Below are positions 1 to 57,981 of a DNA stretch of 57,981 bases, one piece after another. The notes below the pieces were generated by a model. That model did no database searches. It had not been told where the DNA came from and was given only the letters and a program-made list of their open reading frames with translations. The DNA is from Selenomonadales bacterium (GTDB lineage: Bacteria > Bacillota > UBA994), in NCBI GenBank assembly GCA_018335585.1, contig JAGXRZ010000063.1, positions 1 to 57,981 on the forward strand, read 5' to 3'. Every line of letters starts with the position of its first letter. Position 1 is the first letter of the stretch. A program made the position numbers and the translations under genes.

Positions 1-243
1 TTCACGATGTACATGCTCATAGTCTGGGCGTCTGCGTAACGGTGGCCCCACAGAAGAACCAAAAAGGAGCTCATGAAGTTCCCCATTGGCGAAGTCCCCT
101 TTGAGAGGCCAACTTACGCCGACCTCCTTGGCCCGGCTGAGGACCTTAGCTACTGTGTTGCGTGAGCAGTTGCAGGACGCAGCGATTCCTCGCCGACTCA
201 GTCCCTGCATGCTCAGTCGCAAGATTTCCCGGTAGTCTGTCAT
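1..243 (-). CDS. istA: IS21-family transposase IstA, N-terminal part (cut by window edge)
   Basis: Read on the minus strand from the ATG at 243, the frame gives MTDYREILRLSMQGLSRRGI and then a helix-turn-helix with CSRNTVAKVLSRA, the typical start of IS21 IstA transposases, which use an N-terminal HTH to bind the element ends before the DDE catalytic core. A strong AAGGGGGAAGGG ribosome binding site sits just upstream (revcomp of 244-256). The gene runs off the left edge, so the catalytic domain and any istB helper ATPase are outside the window. It points away from the ardC remnant and its terminal repeats lie between the two genes. Confidence 0.8.
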   Translation of the reverse strand, partial: MTDYREILRLSMQGLSRRGIAASCNCSRNTVAKVLSRAKEVGVSWPLKGDFANGELHELLFGSSVGPPLRRRPDYEHVHRE

Positions 244-401: not shown

Positions 402-1019
402 TACTCACGCACGCGTGCCCGGTTTGATCACGACCCGGTGGTCGAGGCTGAGGCTATCTTGGCTAGGTACGTTGACAAGCCGCCGGTCCGATTCGGGAGA
501 GGTCGAGCTTTCTATTCGCCGAGCGAAGACTATATCAGCTTGCCGCCTATAGGCGACTTCCCGGTGGTGGCCGAATACTACGCCACTCTCTTCCACGAGC
601 TAGCGCACAGCACGGGTCATGGTTCGCGGCTGAATCGTCCGAGTGTTGCCGAGCCGGGGAAGGCGGCTTTCGGGTCGGAGCTCTATGGCAAGGAGGAGTT
701 GGTGGCGGAGCTGGCGGCGGCCTTCCTAATGGCGGATGCGGGGATGGATCGGGAGATAAAAAATAGGGCTTCGTATATTGGCGGCTGGCTTGGCGCAATA
801 AAGCAGGACGTTCGCCTGATAGTGTCTGCAGCAGCTCTGGCGACGAAAGCCACAGAGTATATTCAAGGGCAACGGAATCCTGAACGAGATGCGGACAGGG
901 ACGGGGAAGGGTTTGAGCCGCCGGAGGCAGTCGTACATGTGGCTGAGGAGTGCGGGACGCAGACTTCTACGGTAGCTCTGCCGGCAAAGAAGAGGGGCCG
1001 GAGCTCGGTAGACCGATAA
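402..1019 (+). pseudogene. ArdC-type antirestriction protein, C-terminal zinc-metallopeptidase part, 5' truncated
   Basis: The open frame (usable GTG at 438; a stop at 399) encodes the C-terminal domain of ArdC-like proteins: a DYISLPP strand, then HELAHSTGH, the HExxH-type zinc motif, followed by KEELVAELAAAFL and YIGGWL. ArdC proteins of plasmids and conjugative elements protect incoming DNA from restriction, and normally have an N-terminal ssDNA-binding domain to reach about 300 residues. That domain is missing here, with the IS21 end only about 25 bp upstream, so I infer the insertion removed the 5' half. Whether a truncated peptidase is still made from GTG 438 is unclear. Confidence 0.72.
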
Positions 1020-22052: not shown

Positions 22053-23024
22053 ATGACGCGCGATGATGGTAACTTGCCATCGTTTTCAGTAGTATCATAC
22101 TTCTGCGGCTGTGGCGGTTTGGATTTGGGCTTCCGCGGGGATTTTCAGTATCGGGGAGAGGCTTACCCAAAATTACCTTTTGAGATAAAGGCGGCATTCG
22201 ATAACAATGCTGCATGCATCGAAACCTACAATCGTTTTTTTGGCGAACACGCACAAATGGTAGACTTATCTGCTGCTGACGCTAGAACAATTGTAACCTC
22301 CGATTTGTTGATAGGGGGATTCCCTTGTCAAGAGTTCTCCTCGTGTGGGCCTCTTGGTGGGCTTGACTCTGAACGAGGGCAACTTTATAAAGCGCTCATC
22401 AGGTATATGGAGGTGCACCAGCCAAAATTAGTAGTCGGAGAAAACGTCATCAACCTAGAGCGAATGGAAAAGGGTAAGGTCAAGGAGGCTATTGTCAACG
22501 AGCTCCAAGGGGCCGGGTATAAAGTCGAGGTGTGGAAGCTTTACGCTCCCGACTATGGTATTCCTCAGAGACGAACCCGGTTGTTCTTTATTTGCGTGCG
22601 TGCCGACCTCGATGGGTTTCCGGCGCAACCAAGGGCTGATTTCATACACGAACAGCGGAGTATTGAATGGGCTATCGGCGACCTGGTGGAGGTGACGGAT
22701 GAGAGTGTTCCTAACCAGAGTCAGTATTTCGGGGCGTCGAGGGCGAAAAGGGGGAATGGGCAGGGTGATGAAAGCAGCAAAAGGGACAAGCCTGCATATA
22801 CAATACGGGCCAACCCTAAGTCGCGAGTTCAGTTTCATTACTCGCTTGACCGTCGTCTAACAGTCAGAGAGTGTGCGAGGATTCAGACGTTCCCAGATGA
22901 CTTCGTTTTCACTCATGCTGCCACTTCAAGCATATCGCAAATAGGCAATGCGGTGCCACCAGTGCTGGCTTATCGCGTGGCATCCTCCATAGCTGAATAC
23001 ATGAAAAGATTAAGAGAGGTGTAA
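22053..23024 (+). CDS. DNA (cytosine-5) methyltransferase
   Basis: ATG 22053 with AAGGAGG at about 22040. All main C5-MTase motifs are present: motif I FCGCGGLDLGF (17-27), motif IV GGFPCQEFS with catalytic Cys92, motif VI GENVINLE (129-136), motif VIII PQRRTRLFF (171-179) and motif X QIGNAVPPVLAYRVA near 300. The target-recognition region is short (about 190-260), giving 323 aa. It is the first gene of a tight four-gene unit with a GHKL ATPase and a nuclease-helicase, so it probably marks host DNA to protect it. Confidence 0.92.
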   Translation: MTRDDGNLPSFSVVSYFCGCGGLDLGFRGDFQYRGEAYPKLPFEIKAAFDNNAACIETYNRFFGEHAQMVDLSAADARTIVTSDLLIGGFPCQEFSSCGPLGGLDSERGQLYKALIRYMEVHQPKLVVGENVINLERMEKGKVKEAIVNELQGAGYKVEVWKLYAPDYGIPQRRTRLFFICVRADLDGFPAQPRADFIHEQRSIEWAIGDLVEVTDESVPNQSQYFGASRAKRGNGQGDESSKRDKPAYTIRANPKSRVQFHYSLDRRLTVRECARIQTFPDDFVFTHAATSSISQIGNAVPPVLAYRVASSIAEYMKRLREV

Positions 23025-23027
23025 AAA

Positions 23028-25412
23028 ATGGGGGGGCATGCTTCGGTTGATATTACCCCAAAACCGCGAATTCTGAGGACGCTAGGAGATATTCCGTTTC
23101 AGCCGTGGCAATGCCTAGCGGAGTTGATTGATAACTCGATCGACGCATTTCTCGCGAGCGAGGCAAGTGGGGAAAATGGCAAAGAGCAGAGAATTGTGGT
23201 CAACTGGTCGAATGACTCTGTCGGAACGGGTGACCGCACGGTGGAGGTTTCGGACAATGCGTGCGGGATGACCCTAGAACAACTACAGAACGCAGTGACT
23301 GCGGGATATACCAGTAATGACCCCATAAACCATTTGGGGCTCTTCGGCATGGGCTTCAACATAGCGACCGCGCGCCTCGGCGAGGTGACTACTATAAGGT
23401 CGACCTGCGCCGGTGATACCCAGTGGGTCGAGCTGACTATTGACTTTGGTGAGTTGATCAAGGCAAGGCGCTTTCTCGCTCCTGTTAGGATGCTGCCAAA
23501 AGACAATCCACTTGAGTCAGGGACAAAGATAATCATCTCCCAGCTGAAAGCCGGTATCTCTGATACCATGATTGCTAAGGAGAGCGATATCAGAAGGCAA
23601 TTGGAGTCAATCTATACCCCATTACTCACGACGAAGGATATAATGGTGCTAGTTAAGGGGCGGCAGCTGTCGCCCCGGAACCATTGCGTCTGGTCGGATG
23701 CCCGCTATGTGGTTCACAATCAAGCGAATGTCCCAGCAAGGGTGGACATTGACCGTGATCTAGGACACTCCCTATTCGATACCGAGAAGAATTGCTATCT
23801 CACAGAGGATGAGGCTGAGCCGTATTACACTGCTCAGTCGACCGGCGAGACCCTCCCCGGGAACATTGTGGAGCGAAACAAGCGCCTTACCGGTTGGCTG
23901 GGCATTCAACGTTACGCCGATCCGAACGATTACGGCATCGATTTTGTCCGTAACGGGCGCAAAATAAGGATTGCAGACAAGTCCCTCTTCTTCTACGACA
24001 ATCCCTTTACTGGAGCGAAAGAACTTCAATACCCTGTTGAGCTCGGATCAACTATCGGTGGCCGTATCGTGGGTGAGCTGCATGTGGATTACTTACTGCC
24101 GGTCTATCAAAAGAACGACTTTAACAAAGAGGATACTTCATGGGCTCAGACGGTCGAGGCGATTTGTGGGGTGGGTCCGTTCCTGCCTCAAAGGCGTAAA
24201 GCATTGGGTTTTCCTCCGGAGGTTACTTCACCGTTGGGAGTGCTGGCAAATGCCTATCGCCGTGTCGACTCTGGAACGAAGTGTTTATTTGCGCCGAATG
24301 ACAAGGCGAAAGAATACGCTGGATATTTTCGGAGCGGACGACGTGAGTATATTGATGATAGCCTTTGGTGGAAAGCCGCCCAAGAGGAAGACCAGAAACG
24401 TAGTACCGGGGGAACGAGGTTGACAACAGCGGTGAATCCAGGCGACGCGCCCTCCGACGATCCTAGTTCATACCTTCGGGGGAGTATGGGTTCAACTATC
24501 GGAAGCGGCAGCACACCTTCGATACCTACGGTGCCAAGTCCTCCTCTAGTGCCAGTGGTGACATCGCCTGCAATGGCGACATCTAAGCTTGATGAGCTTA
24601 TTCGTAACTCTGCCCAAGTTGGGCAGCTAACTGGGAAATATAGCTTCGGCAGAGCAGCCCCACTAAATGTTCGGGCTTATGAGCTGAAGATCGGCACAGA
24701 AATTCTCGCAAACGGTGAGCGCAAGCCCTGCTTCTTTTCATCAAGCGGCATTGACTGCACTTTTGTTTACGACCCGGCGCATCCCGTCTTAGCACAGTTC
24801 CCAATCAGCCCAAAGGAGCTGCTGCTCCAATATCTAGCCGAGAAGCTAAAGGCCCGAGACAACCTTGCTGATGTGGTTGAGGTGTTCTCTACCCTCGTTC
24901 AGAACACAATGCCAGAGGCGAAGATTGACCGACAGTCATTACAGGATCGGGCGGCGAAGGCCTTTGCCACGTTGCGGGAAAAGATGGTCGATGCACTGAG
25001 ACCGCAGGCTATTAGCGTACTGCAGTGTATACATGAGTCCACTGGCGACGTGGAGGACACCGTAAATCGGATGCTCTTCAACCCAGCGCTGATTCAACGC
25101 TTCCAGACATGTCAGGAGAGCGGATATGATGCGTTGGAGTACGTGCCGGAAAAAGCCCTCTTGCGCCTCGTTGACAGGTTCCCCGAACGGGTTTTCGATG
25201 GCAAGGTGGTCACTGCTCCATACACAAGTATTAGTTTCTCGGATGAGAAAGCTACGGAGCGGAGCCGTAATGAGTCAAAAGAGCGTGTTATGTCGTTCTT
25301 AAAGGACGCACTTCGGGTGATGGCAAATACAGGTTTTGGGCAGCGTGACTTGAAGAACGAGCTGTCTCGCGCCTCGCTGAGCATCGACTTTCTGTTGGGG
25401 GAGTTGGTGTGA
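23028..25412 (+). CDS. MORC-like GHKL (HSP90-type) ATPase, 794 aa
   Basis: Begins 3 bp after the methyltransferase stop, with AGAGAGGTG upstream. The Bergerat ATP-binding fold is clear: N box ELIDNSIDAF (32-41), G1 DNACGM (76-81) and G2 GLFGMGFN (104-111), then an S5-like domain with the conserved Lys region (LLPVYQKNDFNKEDTSW). A Pro/Ser/Thr-rich linker (about 480-530) separates a helical C-terminal domain. MORC-type ATPases in bacteria occur in restriction-modification-like operons and are thought to clamp or loop DNA. It overlaps the next gene by one base. Confidence 0.85.
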   Translation: MGGHASVDITPKPRILRTLGDIPFQPWQCLAELIDNSIDAFLASEASGENGKEQRIVVNWSNDSVGTGDRTVEVSDNACGMTLEQLQNAVTAGYTSNDPINHLGLFGMGFNIATARLGEVTTIRSTCAGDTQWVELTIDFGELIKARRFLAPVRMLPKDNPLESGTKIIISQLKAGISDTMIAKESDIRRQLESIYTPLLTTKDIMVLVKGRQLSPRNHCVWSDARYVVHNQANVPARVDIDRDLGHSLFDTEKNCYLTEDEAEPYYTAQSTGETLPGNIVERNKRLTGWLGIQRYADPNDYGIDFVRNGRKIRIADKSLFFYDNPFTGAKELQYPVELGSTIGGRIVGELHVDYLLPVYQKNDFNKEDTSWAQTVEAICGVGPFLPQRRKALGFPPEVTSPLGVLANAYRRVDSGTKCLFAPNDKAKEYAGYFRSGRREYIDDSLWWKAAQEEDQKRSTGGTRLTTAVNPGDAPSDDPSSYLRGSMGSTIGSGSTPSIPTVPSPPLVPVVTSPAMATSKLDELIRNSAQVGQLTGKYSFGRAAPLNVRAYELKIGTEILANGERKPCFFSSSGIDCTFVYDPAHPVLAQFPISPKELLLQYLAEKLKARDNLADVVEVFSTLVQNTMPEAKIDRQSLQDRAAKAFATLREKMVDALRPQAISVLQCIHESTGDVEDTVNRMLFNPALIQRFQTCQESGYDALEYVPEKALLRLVDRFPERVFDGKVVTAPYTSISFSDEKATERSRNESKERVMSFLKDALRVMANTGFGQRDLKNELSRASLSIDFLLGELV

Positions 25413-27070
25413 TGAACTTCTATACGCAAGACATTTCCGAAGGGAACAACTGGAAAGGCCTTGTACGTGCGGTAGCGAGAATGATGGCACATATCGGATG
25501 GAAAGACACTGCCGTTATTGACGGCTCTGGAGATATGGGGGCAGACTTATTGGCGATGCGCGACGAGGGGGGAAAGGTTCTTTCCTGGGTCGTTCAGTCA
25601 AAAGCGGTGGCGGGAGACAGATACATTGGGCCAAGTGCAATGCAGGAGGCGGTGACCGCCTTGTCCTTTTATGGGGCAGAAATAGCGGCCGTCGCTACTA
25701 ATGGCGAATTCACGCACACTGCCAAGGTTCGGCAAAAACAACTGGAGACGCATGGCTATAGGCTGAAGCTTTGGAATGGGGCATTTATCAAGAATGTGAT
25801 TGACCAAATGCCAAACGAAAGTGCAGCCCTCAGAGAGCTTCGACCCTATCAAGAAGGAATCGTCAACAAAGTAATAAAGGCTTTTGACGAAGGCGGTAAG
25901 AAGGCGTTTTATATTGTCGCTACTGGCCTAGGCAAAACAGTGATTGCAGCGACCATCACGCAGCAATTGTGGGAGCGCGGGTGTCGTCGCATTCTGGTGC
26001 TTTGCCATCAGACAGACTTGGCGCAACAACTTGAACAGGGCTTCTGGCCGCAGCTTACGAAAGAGGTTCCCACATCCGTCTTCTTTGACGGGATACCTCC
26101 TAAGAATACAGAGGGAGTTGCTTTCGGTCTATATCAAAGCCTGTACGGCTACCTACCGGGCATCGAAGAAAGCCGATTTGATGCTGTAATAGTTGACGAG
26201 GCACACCACGCGATGGCGTATGGGTTTAGGGCCTGCCTTGACCATTTGAAGCCGAGGTTTCTTATTGGAATGACTGCTACGCCCTGGCGGGGAGACGGGC
26301 AGAACCTCAACACTGTCTTTGGCGAACCGCTAGCCAAGGTCTCCTTAGTTGACGGCATGGCGATGGGGTATTTGTCAAAAGTGGACTACCGTATCCTCTG
26401 CGATAATGTGGACTGGGACGGCATGCTAAGTATCAGCAAACAGAAGCTCTCCATTAAGGACTTAAATAAGCGCCTCTTTCTCCCTCAGCGCGACGAAGCC
26501 GTTATCGCTGAAATTCAAAACATCGTCAATACGGTGCCGACCCCACGAATTGCAGTATTCTCTCCTTCGATTGAACACAGCAACCGTTTCGCAGCGATGC
26601 TATCAGCCGCCGGAGTCCCGACCGCCGCCTTGTCTATCACGGACAAAGCGGAGCGGCGCAAACGGCTCCTCGGTTTTTCGGCTGGAAATTATAGTGCGGT
26701 CACGGCAGTCGATGTGATGAACGAAGGCATTGACATACCGGATGTGAATATCCTCGTGTTCCTGAGGGCTACGCATTCAAGGCGCATATTTGTACAGCAG
26801 CTTGGGCGTGGGCTACGGCTTTCGGAGGGGAAGGACAAGGTTATCGTTTTGGACTTCGTCTCCGATATCCGAAGGATGGCGGAAATGGTCGGGATGAATA
26901 ACGAGGGCAAAGAAAAAGGGCGAGAAAAAGAGATTTTGTTCTTAGAGCAAGGTTTTGTTTCCTTCTCCGATGCTAGGGTGGAGCGCTTTGTGAATATATG
27001 GATTGAGGACATGGCTGATCTCAGTGGTTCTGATGACGAGGTCAAGCTTACGTTCCCGGAGGGGTTCTAA
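25412..27070 (+). CDS. Mrr-like restriction endonuclease fused to SF2 helicase
   Basis: ATG 25412 overlaps the ATPase stop (TGATG), with GGGGGAG upstream. Residues 10-135 form an Mrr-type PD-(D/E)xK nuclease: GDMGADLLA (Asp45) and WVVQSKAV (Q62-S-K64), where Gln replaces the acidic residue as is common in Mrr enzymes. Residues 140-490 are an SF2 helicase: Walker A ATGLGKT (170-176), VIVDEAHHAM (DEAH 262-265), GMTATPWRGDG and QQLGRGLRLSEGK (motif VI). A single chain therefore can translocate on and cut DNA, probably guided by the methylation state. Confidence 0.88.
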   Translation: MNFYTQDISEGNNWKGLVRAVARMMAHIGWKDTAVIDGSGDMGADLLAMRDEGGKVLSWVVQSKAVAGDRYIGPSAMQEAVTALSFYGAEIAAVATNGEFTHTAKVRQKQLETHGYRLKLWNGAFIKNVIDQMPNESAALRELRPYQEGIVNKVIKAFDEGGKKAFYIVATGLGKTVIAATITQQLWERGCRRILVLCHQTDLAQQLEQGFWPQLTKEVPTSVFFDGIPPKNTEGVAFGLYQSLYGYLPGIEESRFDAVIVDEAHHAMAYGFRACLDHLKPRFLIGMTATPWRGDGQNLNTVFGEPLAKVSLVDGMAMGYLSKVDYRILCDNVDWDGMLSISKQKLSIKDLNKRLFLPQRDEAVIAEIQNIVNTVPTPRIAVFSPSIEHSNRFAAMLSAAGVPTAALSITDKAERRKRLLGFSAGNYSAVTAVDVMNEGIDIPDVNILVFLRATHSRRIFVQQLGRGLRLSEGKDKVIVLDFVSDIRRMAEMVGMNNEGKEKGREKEILFLEQGFVSFSDARVERFVNIWIEDMADLSGSDDEVKLTFPEGF

Positions 27071-27642
27071 TGCCGAAAGCGTTGCCGACAGGTGTTGCGG
27101 CCCAGCTTAAACGAGCAGTATTCAAAAAGGCCGACCTACACGGATATGCCTTAAAAGGGCGCGTAGAGAACGGACGTTTTATGGACGACCTTGTTAACGA
27201 TCCGGAGATTGGCGGCATAATTGGGGAGTATGTTGCAGCAGACAAGGTGAGGGTGTATATCAAGGACGGCATTCTCAACGCCTATACGAAGAGGAAGGCG
27301 GAACAAGTTCTTCGGGGGCACGACCCAGTCCAAGTTATCCGTAGTACATTCGGTGCGGGTGAGGTTGCCATTGTGGAGAATAAAGGAGAAATTGTCGTGG
27401 GCCGTTCCTCAGACGGACGATTCTTCATCGTTGGCAGGGGCACAGTGCTGAAATGGGAAAGTGCGCTTCGGAAAGTTCTTGAGTATATCGCCCGTCTCAA
27501 GAGGAATCACGTTGACGAGAATTACCCTTCCATATGTCTTCAACTGGCGGTCATTAACTATGGCATCACCGAGGGCGACAAGAACCAGATTACCAGAGCA
27601 CTAATGGCCGTTGGCGTTAAGGTGTACTTCTGCTCGTCGTAA
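27070..27642 (+). CDS. Unknown fourth protein of the MORC-type cassette, 190 aa
   Basis: ATG 27070 overlaps the helicase stop by one base (TAATG) and has GGAGGGG just before. No family recognised. The protein is mixed alpha/beta with segments FKKADLHGYALKGRVENGRF, GAGEVAIVENKGEIVVGRSSDGRFFIVGRG and LQLAVINYGITEGDKNQI; no transmembrane helix or catalytic motif stands out. Translational coupling indicates it is part of the system, perhaps as specificity factor or regulator. The FKKADLHGY... start followed by a beta-rich middle could be a small DNA-binding or scaffold fold; this is a guess. Confidence 0.72.
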   Translation: MPKALPTGVAAQLKRAVFKKADLHGYALKGRVENGRFMDDLVNDPEIGGIIGEYVAADKVRVYIKDGILNAYTKRKAEQVLRGHDPVQVIRSTFGAGEVAIVENKGEIVVGRSSDGRFFIVGRGTVLKWESALRKVLEYIARLKRNHVDENYPSICLQLAVINYGITEGDKNQITRALMAVGVKVYFCSS

Positions 27643-29748: not shown

Positions 29749-29967
29749 TTCACTTGACTCGTTAAAACAGGCATTAGAGATTTTTGTCCGCCGCTTGTTT
29801 TGTTGGCGTTTCCCATACCATGGGCGTTCGGCTCCTTCGCGAACCAACAGAGCGAGGAGGAGAACGGAGGTTGCGGCCGCAATCAGAGACAGTAGGCATC
29901 CTAATTTGACAGCAGTTTTGACAGCAACGCCGACGCAACATACTGCAATGCCCTGCTCCCTGCGCAT
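29743..29967 (-). CDS. Possible small membrane peptide, 74 aa
   Basis: Minus-strand ATG at 29967 with GAGGA seven bases upstream; it overlaps the end of the previous gene by 6 bp. One hydrophobic helix (KLGCLLSLIAAATSVLLLALLV, about 22-43) precedes a basic tail (GKRQQNKRRTK). It may be real, but the support is only the RBS and the helix. Confidence 0.3.
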   Translation of the reverse strand: MRREQGIAVCCVGVAVKTAVKLGCLLSLIAAATSVLLLALLVREGAERPWYGKRQQNKRRTKISNACFNESSES

Positions 29968-30230
29968 CGGTCGATCCTCGGAAACCCTTGCTATAGCTGG
30001 ACTTTGGAAGCGAACAGCTACACACTAGTACGTGTTGCAACCCCAAGCACCTAACTCTTAATCAGTGGGTCGCGCTGCCGGGTCAGTCAGCAAAAGTTCT
30101 ACCAAAAGTTCTACCGTAAGCCAGCCAAGAGGGGCATAGACGAGCAGAACATGTGTTCGCCGAAGGGGCCAAAAAGCATTGCTATTGCTGACTCCAGCCG
30201 AGCCGACCGAAGGAGGGCAAAGAGCGCTCC
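29968..30230. other. Gene-free stretch left of the tRNA fragment
   Basis: No gene seen. Contains a direct repeat AAAAGTTCTACC (about 30092 and 30104). If the tRNA fragment marks an integration site, this should be the right end of the element, where recombinase arm sites would lie. Confidence 0.4.
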
Positions 30231-30280
30231 CTACCTTGACACGGTAGAGGTCACAGGTTCGAACCCTGTTGCTCCCACCA
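30231..30280 (+). other. 3' half of a tRNA-Val(GAC) gene: probable attachment site
   Basis: CTACC-TTGACAC-GGTAG is a complete anticodon arm with anticodon GAC, followed by AGGTC, T-arm ACAGG-TTCGAAC-CCTGT, and TGCTCCC-A-CCA with encoded CCA. The 5' acceptor strand (GGGAGCA expected) and D arm are missing; upstream bases (GAGGGCAAAGAGCGCTC) do not fold as a D arm. A terminator follows. This is the usual footprint left when an integrative element restores its target tRNA at one end and leaves the displaced 3' half at the other. Confidence 0.75.
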
Positions 30281-30293
30281 TAAGAACTAGGAA

Positions 30294-30322
30294 CGCCAAG
30301 GGTTTTAAGCCCTTGGCGGTTT
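30294..30322 (+). terminator. Terminator after tRNA-Val fragment
   Basis: CGCCAAGGG (30294-30302), loop TTTTAAG, CCCTTGGCG (30310-30318), then GTTT. Probably the original terminator of the tRNA transcript. Confidence 0.6.
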
Positions 30323-30361
30323 GATGCTATATTGCAACCATTACGTAGGCTTTGAAATAGT

Positions 30362-30994
30362 CTAGCGCTTGCGGTACTGATAACTTATGACGGCAGTAGG
30401 ACATGCCGCAATGCAGTCAGCACATTGGTGGCAAAGCGTCGCATCTATTTCTGCAACCTCGGTCAGAGGGGTAACCGTGACGGCATTGGCAGGGCAAACC
30501 TCTTCACATTTTTGACAGCGGACGCAGCCTGTTGCCTTTACTGATACCGCGAATCTTGCATACTTTCCAGTGAGTCTGAGTAATGCTCCATACGGACAGA
30601 CGAGATTGTGGAACACCCACGGTTTTAGTCGAAGCGTCATTATGAACGAAAGAACCAATAGTATCAGGAGGAATGGGAACTCGCGCTGAAGGATTTGTCT
30701 GAAAACAATCACCGTACTAATCATGAGTGCCAACACAAACCACGGCATATTAGGATTCCGGAGCCATGTAGGTATCGTGTCCCTTTGCCAATTCATTCGT
30801 TTAGCTACCTTTTCGGAGACTCGCATTAGTGTGTTCATTGGACATATATATCCGCAAAAATATCTGCCAAATAGCGCCGCAGTTAATAACCCAACCACGA
30901 AAACGGCTAGCCAAATCACCATATTGCCAGTGACAACTAATAGAGCAAACACTATAAAAAGAACTACTTCAACGGATGTTCTCGCTTTGGCCAT
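30362..30994 (-). CDS. NapH/CcoG-like polyferredoxin membrane protein
   Basis: The 210-aa minus-strand product has hydrophobic helices (VEVVLFIVFALLVV, VIWLAVFVVGLLTAALF, WFVLALMISTVIVF, FLLILLVLSFIMTL), the CGYICPMN and NLVCPYGALL cysteine motifs of the NapH/FixG family, and two [4Fe-4S] sites (CVRCQKCEEVCP; CHQCADCIAACP) at the C-terminus. Such proteins pass electrons from the quinone pool to soluble redox partners. It diverges from a Crp/Fnr gene across a palindromic operator, suggesting regulation by redox or nitrogen-oxide stress. It is shorter than typical NapH (about 270 aa), perhaps with fewer helices. The ATG at 30994 has AAGGGTGG upstream (minus strand). Confidence 0.8.
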   Translation of the reverse strand: MAKARTSVEVVLFIVFALLVVTGNMVIWLAVFVVGLLTAALFGRYFCGYICPMNTLMRVSEKVAKRMNWQRDTIPTWLRNPNMPWFVLALMISTVIVFRQILQREFPFLLILLVLSFIMTLRLKPWVFHNLVCPYGALLRLTGKYARFAVSVKATGCVRCQKCEEVCPANAVTVTPLTEVAEIDATLCHQCADCIAACPTAVISYQYRKR

Positions 30995-31054
30995 AGTTCA
31001 ACCACCCTTTCACTTCATTGAAAAGAGTATATACTAAGAGGGACTAAGAAAGTG

Positions 31055-31068
31055 TTACGGATGTAACG
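31055..31068. promoter_or_regulatory. Palindromic operator between napH-like and crp/fnr genes
   Basis: GTTAC-GGAT-GTAAC (31055-31068) is a perfect dyad placed 25 bp before the regulator's start codon and between divergent genes. It resembles sites of HcpR/Dnr-type Crp/Fnr regulators, so autoregulation plus control of the iron-sulfur protein is likely. Confidence 0.55.
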
Positions 31069-31092
31069 CTGCATAAACAATGGAGGCGACCC

Positions 31093-31749
31093 ATGTTGCA
31101 GTTGCGTGAGGTCTCGATAATCAAAGCGCTCCCTGCTGATGTACTAGATGCTTGTCTACAAGATGGTAGCATAAGGAGCGTGTGCTATGAAAAAGACGCA
31201 GTGATTCACTTTGAAGGCGATCGATGTGACAGCCTTGAGGTTGTCGTCAAAGGGAGCGTAATGATTGAACGCATCGATGAGGAAGGCAATCTACTCACTA
31301 TTGCAGAGTTTTCGTCAGGGGACATAATCGGCGGCAACTTGATGTTCTCTAAGGATCCTCATTATCCGTTCGCCGTCAGCGCAAAAACCGTAGTGGAGCT
31401 TGTGCGCTTTTCTAAAGAGCGTACTTTTGTTCTCTGTAGTCAATCCCCATATTTTCTGGAATGTTACTTGGAGTGCGTTTCGAGCCATGCCCTTACATTA
31501 GGCGATAAGATTAAGCACCACGTTAGAAGAACAATTCGCGAGAGGATCACTGCTTATCTCGCTAATGAGGTCAAGAGACAAGGTAGCTGCCATATCAAAT
31601 TGTCGCTTACCAAGAAAGCCCTCGCAGAGAGAATTGGCGCCCAAAGGACATCGCTATCCCGAGAGCTACAAAGAATGAAATTAGACGGCCTGATTGATTA
31701 TAATGCCACCCATGTTGTCTGTCAGAAGATATGGAGAGAGACACCCTAA
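31093..31749 (+). CDS. Crp/Fnr-family transcription regulator (HcpR-like by context)
   Basis: ATG 31093 with GGAGG (31083-31087). Residues 25-115 form the cyclic-nucleotide-binding-like beta roll (SVCYEKDAVIHFEGDRCDSL, GSVMIERIDEEGNLLTIAEF, GDIIGGNLMF); 150-210 form the winged helix (LSLTKKALAERIGAQRTSLS as recognition region, RELQRMKLDGLID). No Fnr-type cysteine cluster is seen at the N-terminus. A role in nitrosative or redox stress is inferred from the adjoining NapH-like gene and the Crp-type site before hcp at 38878. At the 3' end it runs almost directly into the third fic module. Confidence 0.85.
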   Translation: MLQLREVSIIKALPADVLDACLQDGSIRSVCYEKDAVIHFEGDRCDSLEVVVKGSVMIERIDEEGNLLTIAEFSSGDIIGGNLMFSKDPHYPFAVSAKTVVELVRFSKERTFVLCSQSPYFLECYLECVSSHALTLGDKIKHHVRRTIRERITAYLANEVKRQGSCHIKLSLTKKALAERIGAQRTSLSRELQRMKLDGLIDYNATHVVCQKIWRETP

Positions 31750-31831
31750 TGTGAAGCGGCAGGAGATGCGAGGCCGCTGGAATGTCTGTGGCAGGATGAT
31801 TGAACGATACACCGTGGAAGGATGTGTTTGG

Positions 31832-32641
31832 GTGATATGCGATCGGAGCCTTAAGTTGCTCTATGAGAAAGCCAACCGCTATAAAGATCAGATTGCAGCA
31901 GCACGTCCGTTAAGCACACGCGAGGCCAAGAACCTCGACGAGTATTTCAAGATAGGGCTTACCTTCTCTAGCAACGCTCTGGAGGGCAACACGCTGACCA
32001 TTACCGAAACGAAGGTGCTGCTTGAAGACGGGCTGACGGTAGGAGGCAAGCCTATACGAGACTATTATGAGGCGGCCGGCCACGCCAAGGCCTACGACTT
32101 TATGCTGACCTTAGCAAGAGACGGCAACACTCCGCTTTCAGAGGAGCAGATATTAAAACTCCATAAACTCTTCTATGCTCTCCTCGACGAAGACAACGCC
32201 GGAGTCTACCGTCAGGTCAGCGTCTTTATCTCGGGAACCGACTATGTGCCGCCGGGACCGGATGTGGTGCCTGCCGCGATGCAGGTTTTTGTGGCGGAAA
32301 TGAATGCGCTGAGGGGCTCAGTTCATCCTGTCGAGTATGCGGCACGCCTTCACAAGGGCTTGGTCGACATTCATCCGTTTGTCGATGGTAATGGCCGCAC
32401 GGCGCGCTTGCTCATGAATTTAGCGCTGGTCCAGGATGGCTTTGGTATTGCCATCATCCCGCCGGTGCTCCGCGGGGAGTATATCGATGCTCTGCGTGCG
32501 GCGCAACGGGCCAAAAACCCGGATGACACACCATTTTTCAGGCTCATCGCTGAATGTGTGATTGAAACTCAGAAGGACTATTGTCGGTTGCTCCAATTGC
32601 CGACGAAGGACGAAATCAGGGGAGGCTTGTTGCGCACCTGA
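31832..32641 (+). CDS. fic: Fic family adenylyltransferase, second intact copy
   Basis: GTG 31832 starts a 269-aa protein about 95 percent identical by eye to the one at 20236, with the same inhibitory SNALEG (47-52) and catalytic HPFVDGNGRTAR (181-192). The 30 bases upstream (GATTGAACGATACACCGTGG) also match the antitoxin-fic junction at about 20203, so the duplicated block begins at the end of the antitoxin gene, which itself is absent here. The antitoxin was lost or never copied. It is followed by two hairpin repeats, a terminator and a truncated recombinase. Confidence 0.9.
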   Translation: MICDRSLKLLYEKANRYKDQIAAARPLSTREAKNLDEYFKIGLTFSSNALEGNTLTITETKVLLEDGLTVGGKPIRDYYEAAGHAKAYDFMLTLARDGNTPLSEEQILKLHKLFYALLDEDNAGVYRQVSVFISGTDYVPPGPDVVPAAMQVFVAEMNALRGSVHPVEYAARLHKGLVDIHPFVDGNGRTARLLMNLALVQDGFGIAIIPPVLRGEYIDALRAAQRAKNPDDTPFFRLIAECVIETQKDYCRLLQLPTKDEIRGGLLRT

Positions 32642-32728
32642 CAGCAGACCGTCTAGGGTCCGGCAGGCGCGGGCTTGACGCAGAACGATGGCATATGTAC
32701 TACTGGGTGGGGAGCTGGTTTAATCCAA

Positions 32729-32799
32729 GGTGTTTCGCCACCGCTAAGAGCGAGTCGTGTATCCGGGCGTTTCGCCGCCGTTAAGGGCGAATTGTAATG
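32729..32799 (+). repeat. Two tandem 37-bp hairpin repeats (copy of the 21131 array)
   Basis: Units start at 32729 and 32766; both closely match the first and last units of the three-unit array at 21131. The middle unit is missing, consistent with unequal crossover between units. Confidence 0.7.
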
Positions 32800-32832
32800 C
32801 AACAGGCACGGGCCAGCCGTGCCTGTCGTTTT
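32800..32832 (+). terminator. Terminator after second hairpin array
   Basis: AACAGGCACGG and CCGTGCCTGTC pair around GCCAG, followed by GTTTTCG. Copy of the terminator at 21239. Confidence 0.75.
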
Positions 32833-32897
32833 CGATGCAAGTCCCATTAGGGTATCCTCTAGTGGGTTTGTATGGCGTTGTCCCATACGAGTGGCGT

Positions 32898-33010
32898 CTC
32901 TTTTTCGGATATGTGCGCGTTAGCACTACTGAACAGAACACGGCTCGCCAAGAGTCTTTGATGCGTGACCTTGGCGTGGAGAAGGTGTTTGTTGACTACG
33001 CGAGCGGTAG
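32898..33010 (+). pseudogene. Serine recombinase remnant (first ~37 codons)
   Basis: LFFGYVRVSTTEQNTARQES followed by LMRDLGVEKVFVDYASGR matches the intact recombinase at 21417 up to residue ~37, then ends. The start codon and the ~60-bp leader are deleted (compare 21320-21416), and what follows is unrelated, so it is dead. Confidence 0.85.
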
Positions 33011-33106
33011 GCACGAGCACCTCCACACTCAACAAACTCATCCTACCCAAAGAATAGCTCTGGTGGCAACACTGTCGCGGGCCAATGATAGTGTCGCGTG
33101 ACGCTA

Positions 33107-33134
33107 ATAGGCCCCTCCTTAAGAAGGGGCCTAT
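33107..33134. terminator. Bidirectional-type hairpin
   Basis: ATAGGCCCCT (33107-33116), loop CCTTAAGA, AGGGGCCTAT (33125-33134): perfect 10-bp stem. No strong T-run. Confidence 0.5.
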
Positions 33135-33157
33135 ACGGCGATGTCCACCTACTGCTC

Positions 33158-33254
33158 CTTTCGTCAAGAATAGTTGCCAAGTTCATAACATAATGTGCCC
33201 AGTATGTGGCACAGGGACAATAGTGTGACGTGACAACATAATAGGATAGTGATG
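33158..33254 (+). repeat. 97-bp direct repeat, left copy
   Basis: About 80 percent identical to 33849-33945: both begin CTTTCGTCAAGA and include CAGTATGTGGCAC and ACAATA, ending ATAGGA-nnGTGATG. The pair brackets the minus-strand gene at 33311-33832. Confidence 0.7.
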
Positions 33255-33272
33255 TCAGGGAGCCATAAGGCT

Positions 33273-33298
33273 GAAGGGAGCGGCGCCCGCTCCCCTTC
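33273..33298 (-). terminator. Terminator-like hairpin for the 173-aa gene
   Basis: GAAGGGAGCGG (33273-33283) pairs with CCGCTCCCCTTC (33287-33298) with one bulge, 13 bp beyond the stop of the minus-strand gene. Confidence 0.45.
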
Positions 33299-33310
33299 AC
33301 TCAGCAAACA

Positions 33311-33832
33311 CTACCTTGGCGGTAGTAGCTCCAATCCGTCGATGGCGCTTTGGATTTTGGCTCTGTCCCCAGTAGTCCACAACTCCCAGTTCAGAGCTTC
33401 ATTGAGCCTGCGGACATTTTCGGAAATAATCCCGATTCTTCGATCTAACTCGGGGTCAACTCCCGGCCCTTTATAGGCCACGATAGCCTCTCCATTGACA
33501 GCACTAAAGTAGTGGGCATACCCGGCAACAGCAAACATGTCTTGTCTCTGCAATTCATCAGCTAGCCAGCGGCCGGCTGCTCTGGCTGCCATAATATGCC
33601 CTCCCGCGATCCGGATATGCTTGTTGTGTTCCTCAGGACTAGACGAGGCCGCAAGTAAGAAATAGGCATGGGCGTGGTACACAGACGCTGCAAAATTTTG
33701 CCCAATTCTGATCAATCGCTCACGGTCAACTGCCTTCCGCTCCTCGGCGCGGAAATACATGATGCCGCCGATTGCGACTAGCAACAGAACAACTACTACT
33801 GCACGCTTTGCCCAAACCATTTTCGCTTCCAT
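33311..33832 (-). CDS. Membrane-anchored hypothetical protein, 173 aa
   Basis: Minus-strand ATG at 33832 with GGGGAG eight bases upstream. One N-terminal transmembrane helix (AVVVVLLLVAIGGIMYF, about 9-25) precedes a helical extracytoplasmic domain (RLIRIGQNFAASVYHAHAYF, IAGGHIMAARAAGRWLADEL, ISENVRRLNEALNWELW). No family recognised. It lies between two 97-bp direct repeats and is opposite in direction to its neighbours, suggesting an inserted cargo gene. Confidence 0.6.
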   Translation of the reverse strand: MEAKMVWAKRAVVVVLLLVAIGGIMYFRAEERKAVDRERLIRIGQNFAASVYHAHAYFLLAASSSPEEHNKHIRIAGGHIMAARAAGRWLADELQRQDMFAVAGYAHYFSAVNGEAIVAYKGPGVDPELDRRIGIISENVRRLNEALNWELWTTGDRAKIQSAIDGLELLPPR

Positions 33833-33848
33833 CTTTGCACTCCCCGTT

Positions 33849-33945
33849 CTTTCGTCAAGATTAGCTGCCAAATACATGATATAATCTGCACAGTATGTGG
33901 CACAAGGACAATATTGTGACGCGATGACACAATAGGAGGGTGATG
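33849..33945 (+). repeat. 97-bp direct repeat, right copy
   Basis: Right partner of 33158-33254. It contains a TATAAT box (GATATAATC at about 33878) and ends in GGAGGGTGATG, so it may carry a promoter and ribosome binding site. Confidence 0.7.
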
Positions 33946-34026
33946 CTACTTGAGCACGGCGACTCGGCCACAGCATATATGTTACTGAAGGAAGCCTGCG
34001 AACTAAACAGACTGGCTAGGCGCTGA
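33943..34026 (+). CDS. Possible 27-aa leader peptide or gene remnant
   Basis: ATG 33943 follows GGAGGG; the frame reads MLLEHGDSATAYMLLKEACE and ends with a stop at 34024-34026. It may be a truncated gene start created by the repeat duplication, or a leader for ytxC. Evidence is thin. Confidence 0.25.
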   Translation: MLLEHGDSATAYMLLKEACELNRLARR

Positions 34027-34110
34027 AAAGGTGGCGACATAAACTGGAACCTCCCTTCCGTATGAACGATTTTGCCTGCACATATACTACTTCTGAACGA
34101 AGGGAGTGTG

Positions 34111-35104: not shown

Positions 35105-36286
35105 ATGTTTCGCAAATTACCCAGAGATCTATTAATCATCTACTTTTCGCTGTTGTTCTTTGCCGTAGGCACGGGCCTTTATAGCGTTATTATGCCCGCA
35201 TATATTCGCGAGCTTGGCGCAAGCGCGGTGGAGTTGGGGCTACTTAGTGCTATTGCCATGGCGATTGGCGCAGTGGCCGCGCTGCCGGGCGGAATATGGA
35301 CGGATCGCTATGAGCGCAGGAGCCTAATGCTTATTGGTTGGGCAATGTGTGTTCCCGCACCTTTAATTTTCGCGTATGCGCCACACTGGATGTGGCTGAT
35401 TCCCGGCTACTTTCTTATCAATTTCTCTATGTTTAGCACGAATGCTATGCAGGCCTACATGACCTCGCGGAGTTCACCTAGCGAGCGAAGCTTTGTCTTT
35501 GCTACCGTCCACTCTGCCTTTTCTGTCGGGATGATTTTTGCTCCGACGTTAGGTGGTTTTCTGGCCGAGCAGTGGTCCATGCGCGTGACGTTTGCGGCGA
35601 GTCTGCTCTTTTATGCTCTATCTGCCAGTATCCTGCTTAAGCTTGCGCCTAACCCGCCTACCGCCTGCCTAGCGAAGGCCCCGCTACGCCTTGACCCTCG
35701 CTTGTATCCGAAGCGGTTTTGGCTCCTGGTCGTAGTCTTTGTCGGGGTCTGGTACGTGATGTTCCTGCCGTTTAACTTTAACACGCCTTACTTGCAGGAC
35801 GTAGCTAGGCTAAGCTTGCTGCGCATCGGTCTGCTCGGCTCGGTTGCAGCGGTTGGCGGCGCACTCTTGGCCCCTGTCCTCGGGCGCCTCGCCGACAGAG
35901 TCGGCACGTGGCGGGTGCTGGGCGGCTGCTTACTGGTTTTTGCTGTGTCTTATATTCTGCAGCTCCTTTATCCGTCGCCCATTGTGCTCGCCATTGTATT
36001 CTTTGTGCGTGGCGGCACCAATGCGATGATGTCGCTGATGACGGCTTTAGTAAGCGGCGTTGTAGAGGAGAAGACTCTCGGGATGAGCTTTGCCATGTAC
36101 AATTTGGCTACCGGCTTCGCTACTGCCGTCGCCCCCTACACTGCGGGCTGGATGTACGCCGAGTCCGCGCAGGCACCGTTTATTGTGGCCGCAATTCTGG
36201 CACTGGTGTTTGGCGCAACCTTCTTGCTGGCCCCAAGCCGTTTGGCACATCGCTTCGCAAAACCTGCCGTTGACGAAGCGGTTTAG
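35105..36286 (+). CDS. MFS transporter, 393 aa
   Basis: ATG 35105 with GGAGG upstream. Twelve hydrophobic segments can be traced, with the MFS loop 2-3 motif GGIWTDRYERRSLMLIGW (near residue 59) and the equivalent GRLADRVGTWRVLGG in the second half. The N-terminal cytoplasmic stretch is short. Substrate cannot be predicted; the family includes drug and metabolite exporters. The gene is monocistronic, between the ytxC terminator and the thrS leader, whose promoter lies in its last codons. Confidence 0.85.
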   Translation: MFRKLPRDLLIIYFSLLFFAVGTGLYSVIMPAYIRELGASAVELGLLSAIAMAIGAVAALPGGIWTDRYERRSLMLIGWAMCVPAPLIFAYAPHWMWLIPGYFLINFSMFSTNAMQAYMTSRSSPSERSFVFATVHSAFSVGMIFAPTLGGFLAEQWSMRVTFAASLLFYALSASILLKLAPNPPTACLAKAPLRLDPRLYPKRFWLLVVVFVGVWYVMFLPFNFNTPYLQDVARLSLLRIGLLGSVAAVGGALLAPVLGRLADRVGTWRVLGGCLLVFAVSYILQLLYPSPIVLAIVFFVRGGTNAMMSLMTALVSGVVEEKTLGMSFAMYNLATGFATAVAPYTAGWMYAESAQAPFIVAAILALVFGATFLLAPSRLAHRFAKPAVDEAV

Positions 36287-57757: not shown

Positions 57758-57981
57758 TTTTTCGGAGAGTTTGATCCTGGCTCAGGACGAACGCTGGCGG
57801 CATGCCTAATACATGCAAGTCGAACGAACTAGAGGTTAGAGATTAGAGGTTAGAAGTTAGACGCAGGAGTTTTCCTCGTTCTAACATCTGACTTCCAACC
57901 TCTAACTTCTAGTTAGTGGCGGACGGGTGAGTAACGCGTGGGCAACCTGCCCCAAAGCTCGGGATAACACTCCGAAAGGAG
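57758..57981 (+). rRNA. rrs: 16S ribosomal RNA, 5' part (cut by window edge)
   Basis: TTTTTCGG-AGAGTTTGATCCTGG at 57758-57780 matches the Bacillus-type mature 5' end. It continues with CTCAGGACGAACGCTGGCGG, TGCCTAATACATGCAAGTCG and, after the V1 hairpin, AGTGGCGGACGGGTGAGTAA. The helix 6/V1 segment (57824-57912) is about 89 nt against about 33 in E. coli and is made of near-repeats such as GAGGTTAGA. The gene leaves the window at 57981. Confidence 0.97.

Follow-up and report, generated by a model that had tools for sequence, protein, structure and literature searches.

A tRNA-Val(GAC) 3' fragment as the very probable right end of a ~70-kb integrative and conjugative element in a Selenomonadales bacterium

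Islands and integrative and conjugative elements (ICEs) that target tRNA genes are already well known as a class. Islands in the Islander collection combine an intact tRNA gene, a displaced 3' fragment of that gene and an integrase gene inside, and the sites of 2083 of the 3919 islands are centred on the anticodon (PMC4383910). The locus described here has the same three features, whereas its repeat continues for 43 bp beyond the tRNA gene, across a terminator, and its two ends lie on separate contigs. Other close relations are the Bacillota-type ICEs, defined in NCBIfam by coupling proteins of the CD1115-type VirD4 family and by CD1110/Mbov-type VirB4 proteins, and the Tad/Flp (type IVc) pilus loci.

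The window, as we call the whole 57,981-bp stretch of DNA analysed, is contig C63 of genome G000. We hold with high confidence that the tRNA-Val(GAC) fragment at position 30231 is the attR site of an ICE of about 70 kb integrated in tRNA-Val(GAC), because both ends, the duplication between them, an integrase gene, arm-type repeats, empty sites in relatives, links between contigs and conjugation genes could all be found. The features of the window are the following.

1–243, minus strand: start of a putative IS21-like transposase gene, truncated at the edge of the contig (helix-turn-helix match and position)
1–30230, no strand: right part of the predicted ICE, accessory cargo, bounded by the chained left part and attR; relatives G001 and G005 lack it at their empty sites
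438–1019, plus strand: part of a split ardC anti-restriction gene that encodes the C-terminal zincin domain (PF18818 here, PF08401 on contig C13)
5542–6758, plus strand: AbiEi/AbiEii-like toxin-antitoxin pair, cargo (PADLOC, Pfam)
22053–27642, plus strand: consecutive genes for a C5 methylase, a HATPase protein, an Mrr-cat/ResIII helicase and a 190-aa protein (Pfam, PADLOC)
29905–30230, plus strand: predicted element-side arm of attR, 68–81% identical to the DNA beside the tRNA 3' remnants of G004 and G003 and to a decayed copy on contig C53 of the same genome
30096–30116, plus strand: GTTCTACC twice in direct orientation, probably as arm-type sites of the integrase (P arm), with a matching pair at C46:18503-18522
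30231–30280, plus strand: displaced 3' part of tRNA-Val(GAC), 50/50 identical to the gene on contig C46
30236–30242, plus strand: anticodon loop TTGACAC, probable 7-bp crossover region, putatively placed between the half-sites CTACC and GGTAG
30281–30323, plus strand: native terminator of the tRNA-Val gene, within the duplicated attachment block (43/43 identical; hairpin)
30324–34045, no strand: further accessory insert separating attR from the conserved chromosome, absent from G001, G003 and G005
34053–57981, plus strand: chromosomal backbone (YtxC, MFS transporter, onward to 16S rRNA), collinear in G001, G003, G005 and G009 in the stretches compared

Positions 30231-30280 are exactly the 50 bases at the 3' end of a tRNA-Val(GAC) gene, comprising the anticodon stem-loop, the T arm and CCA, and match the intact tRNA-Val(GAC) gene at G000:C46:18600-18676(-) with 0 mismatches. 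A preliminary description of this DNA, which took the half gene for the scar of an integrated element, had therefore placed it correctly, but the repeated block is longer than those 50 bp. Alignment of both loci gave a shared block of 93 bp (30231-30323), likewise with 0 mismatches, that stops abruptly on both sides; on the left, the identity between C46 and the window ends exactly at 30231. In the 43-bp extension lies the terminator, a hairpin of -19.6 kcal/mol whose stem is 11 bp long. A perfect 93-bp repeat is far beyond what chance would be expected to produce. The 50-mer has two copies in the genome as a whole (2,342,732 bp on 69 contigs), namely the one in the window and the one in the intact gene. 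ARAGORN called no tRNA in the window, and Rfam returned a tRNA-like match at 30213-30277 of only 37.3 bits in which the D loop is deleted, compared with 65.9 bits for the intact gene on C46.

The search suggested in the preliminary description, for an intact tRNA-Val gene with the same 3' 50 bp and an adjacent integrase to the left, found both. The tyrosine integrase gene is convergent with the intact tRNA-Val(GAC) gene and ends 92 bp from it, but it sits on C46 and not on the contig of the window. Its product has 392 aa and matches PF00589 with 99.7 bits; the reading frame is intact, and the catalytic set can be read as R in ATGMRRGE, K in TKTSSGRR, HxxR in HALRH, H in LGHSR and Y in DIYSH. 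The element side of the C46 tRNA gene starts beyond the 93-bp block. Behind the integrase lie genes for a restriction enzyme of the EcoO109I type and its accompanying C5 methylase, then for a helix-turn-helix protein, an S24 repressor, a TnpB-like protein, a DnaC-like ATPase and a NusG-like protein, as well as a Tad-like block. The interval has an intact tRNA gene at one end, a 3' fragment in the same orientation at the far end and a tyrosine integrase inside.

The element-side flanks of both ends contain two direct repeats of the GTTCTACC type. The pattern GTTCTACCAAN{2,3}TTCTACCG matches only these two ends genome-wide, and a reversed control gave no match. The longest stretch common to the two 250-bp flanks is 16 bp, compared with a maximum of 15 bp, and mostly 7 or 8 bp, in 500 random pairs of flanks. 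The matching arm repeats and the common stretch therefore tie both ends to one integrase, and from their position and repetition the GTTCTACC copies are probably its binding sites. Crossover most likely took place within the anticodon loop; in the attR remnants of relative G004, identity with the tRNA gene starts exactly at TTGACAC. The motif GGAGGGCAAAGAGCG in the left flank was considered as a decayed 5' half of the tRNA gene and rejected, since a similar motif precedes the tRNA-Ala remnants of G004; it would be better read as conserved arm DNA.

Empty sites were found in two relatives. In G001, an intact tRNA-Val gene and its terminator are followed within ~90 bp by the MFS gene that lies at 35105 in the window. 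In G005, the next gene after tRNA-Val is the YtxC gene that lies at 34072 in the window, and the tRNA cluster of C46 lies upstream. Other genomes carry ends of a related kind. In G003, an attR-like end made up of a tRNA-Val 3' remnant and arm-type repeats lies immediately ahead of the YtxC gene, and G006 has an attR-like tRNA-Val 3' remnant with GTTCTAAC repeats. In G007 the tRNA-Val gene is intact, and behind it come the homologous arm and the C-terminal part of a broken integrase gene. Contig C53 of G004 holds two tRNA-Val remnants.

These findings bear on the idea that the scar is a tRNA pseudogene left by segmental duplication, or an artefact of assembly, with no relation to site-specific integration. 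The assembly is a draft, and misassembly is common at tRNA regions. However, the integrase beside the intact copy, the arm-type repeats, the empty sites and the independent attR-like ends in other species make such an origin scarcely credible.

Two more ends in G004 (L108 and L119) have arm DNA 69-76% identical to that of the window, and their remnant is of tRNA-Ala(GGC). In our reading, the related ends may represent one element family whose site is always in the anticodon region but whose target tRNA can differ. On contig C53 of the same genome as the window (C53:13801-14153, L121), the arm and core of attR recur in decayed form, 81% identical over 354 bp and without the T arm. This copy adjoins an apparent CRISPR array and AbiEi/AbiEii-like genes, as judged from translations only.

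The preliminary description had also expected the island to extend beyond the left edge of the window, and contig ends probably do connect the window, through contig C13, to the tRNA gene and integrase on C46. There is no direct end overlap between C46 and C63. The first 88 bases of C46 are the start of C13, in the right orientation; this overlap falls in a tandem repeat, within a single repetitive reading frame whose stop codon is on C13. C13 ends in an ArdC N-terminal domain (PF08401) followed by IS-like sequence, and the window starts with the beginning of the IS21-like transposase gene on the minus strand, followed by the ArdC C-terminal zincin domain (PF18818). The IS21 assignment is our own reading of the sequence. 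We infer a single ardC gene, interrupted by an IS whose middle is unassembled. A candidate 8-bp target-site duplication at this IS, CGGTTTGA, was rejected, as shared 8-mers are at chance level and the frames do not fit. The proposed order is thus C46, C13, the IS21-like gap and the window, in which three contigs are joined and no single read or contig spans the element. Its length would be 18,556 bp on C46, 21,156 bp on C13 and 30,230 bp in the window, or 69,942 bp, plus the IS middle, the size of which is presumed. The intact tRNA-Val gene, the integrase 92 bp away, the contig links and the uninterrupted site in relatives together support the original reading of the fragment as the scar of an integrated element.

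Because the window part is somewhat unlike C46/C13 in its tetranucleotide composition, the element may be composite. The same difference would fit two elements in tandem, one with the integrase and conjugation genes of C46/C13 and the other with the cargo in the window, the attachment site between them having been lost; the two tRNA-Val remnants on one G004 contig indicate that accretion at this site does happen in the family. We nevertheless consider a tandem arrangement quite improbable: a search allowing up to 3 mismatches found no third copy of the tRNA-Val 3' end in the genome, ardC is split exactly across the gap between C13 and the window, and the arm sites at the two outermost ends match.

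Judged by its genes, C13 carries what is predicted to be the gene set of an ICE. As in ICEs of the Bacillota type, there are a MobP3 relaxase (214 bits, against a curated cut-off of 150), a VirD4-type coupling protein of the CD1115 family (372 bits, against 250), a VirB4-like ATPase and a TrbL-type protein, together with an actin-like ParM homologue. The C-terminal 586 aa of the VirB4-like protein match at 1e-95, which is below the cut-off, and its N-terminal part is a separate frame. Unlike those ICEs, this one has Tad/Flp-like pilus genes aboard and its VirB4-like gene is in two pieces (C13 9613-10218 and 10694-12454) around a gene for a Dam-type methylase. The start and stop codons of the pieces and of the Dam-type gene overlap, all by four bases. 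A second HATPase protein is encoded on C13 (L104:17043-19151).

Under the ICE-attR reading, the tyrosine integrase would have joined attP, on the circular form of the element, to attB in tRNA-Val(GAC), with the anticodon loop as the likeliest crossover site. A tRNA 3' end and terminator brought in by the element would have restored the gene at the left end on C46, and the chromosome's own 3' half with its terminator would have been displaced to the right end, where it forms the scar; that the right-hand 93-bp copy is the original one is presumed. With the VirB4 gene split and ardC interrupted, the element may be immobile. A once-mobile element that is now fixed, with attR as a relic, shares this origin and differs on present activity. 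We regard fixation as a real possibility that stays short of probable, given that the attachment blocks are identical over 93 bp and the integrase frame is intact, so that excision at least may still work.

The Tad/Flp-like block lies on C46 (L033:3253-7892) and C13 (L104:138-542) and adjoins a gene for a long, repetitive, proline-rich protein. Like known Tad/Flp loci, it encodes a TadA-like ATPase, two T2SSF proteins, SAF/CpaB-like proteins, a weakly TadE-like protein and, on C13, a prepilin peptidase. It differs from them in sitting inside an ICE and in that the domain matches, which cover TadA, TadB, TadC, CpaB and prepilin peptidase, do not reach the NCBIfam cut-offs. In the literature consulted, a search for Tad pili in ICEs found no direct report.

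The Tad-like locus in a predicted ICE and the putative change of tRNA target within one arm family are less usual, and are suggested by domain matches and a few alignments. It is conceivable, if rather unlikely, that the ICE carries its own Tad/Flp-type pilus as an aid to mating or attachment, a role like the one that type IV pili play for certain conjugative plasmids of enterobacteria, and also that the family has switched between tRNA-Val(GAC) and tRNA-Ala(GGC) with its arm DNA and anticodon-loop site unchanged. The related ends in sister species allow a test of how integrases change their tRNA targets.

Read as attR, the 50-bp scar sharply delimits a ~70-kb conjugative element in a bacterial family that has received little study, and the defence, protease and signalling genes to its left in the window can be read as mobile cargo rather than host genes. 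The genes at 22053-27642 are likely a restriction or defence module.

The earlier statement that the right side is mostly housekeeping is true from ~34,050 on, where homology with the chromosome of relatives resumes, but not for the accessory insert at 30324-34045. This 3.7-kb insert has genes for a ferredoxin-like (Fer4) protein, a Crp-like regulator and a Fic protein. No second tRNA-Val remnant was found in a search of the backbone junction at 34 kb. The ferredoxin-like gene and the divergent gene for the Crp-like regulator (30362-31728) form 1.37 kb that is 82% identical to contig C15 of the same genome. At the contig end, positions 57759-57981 contain the start of a 16S rRNA gene.
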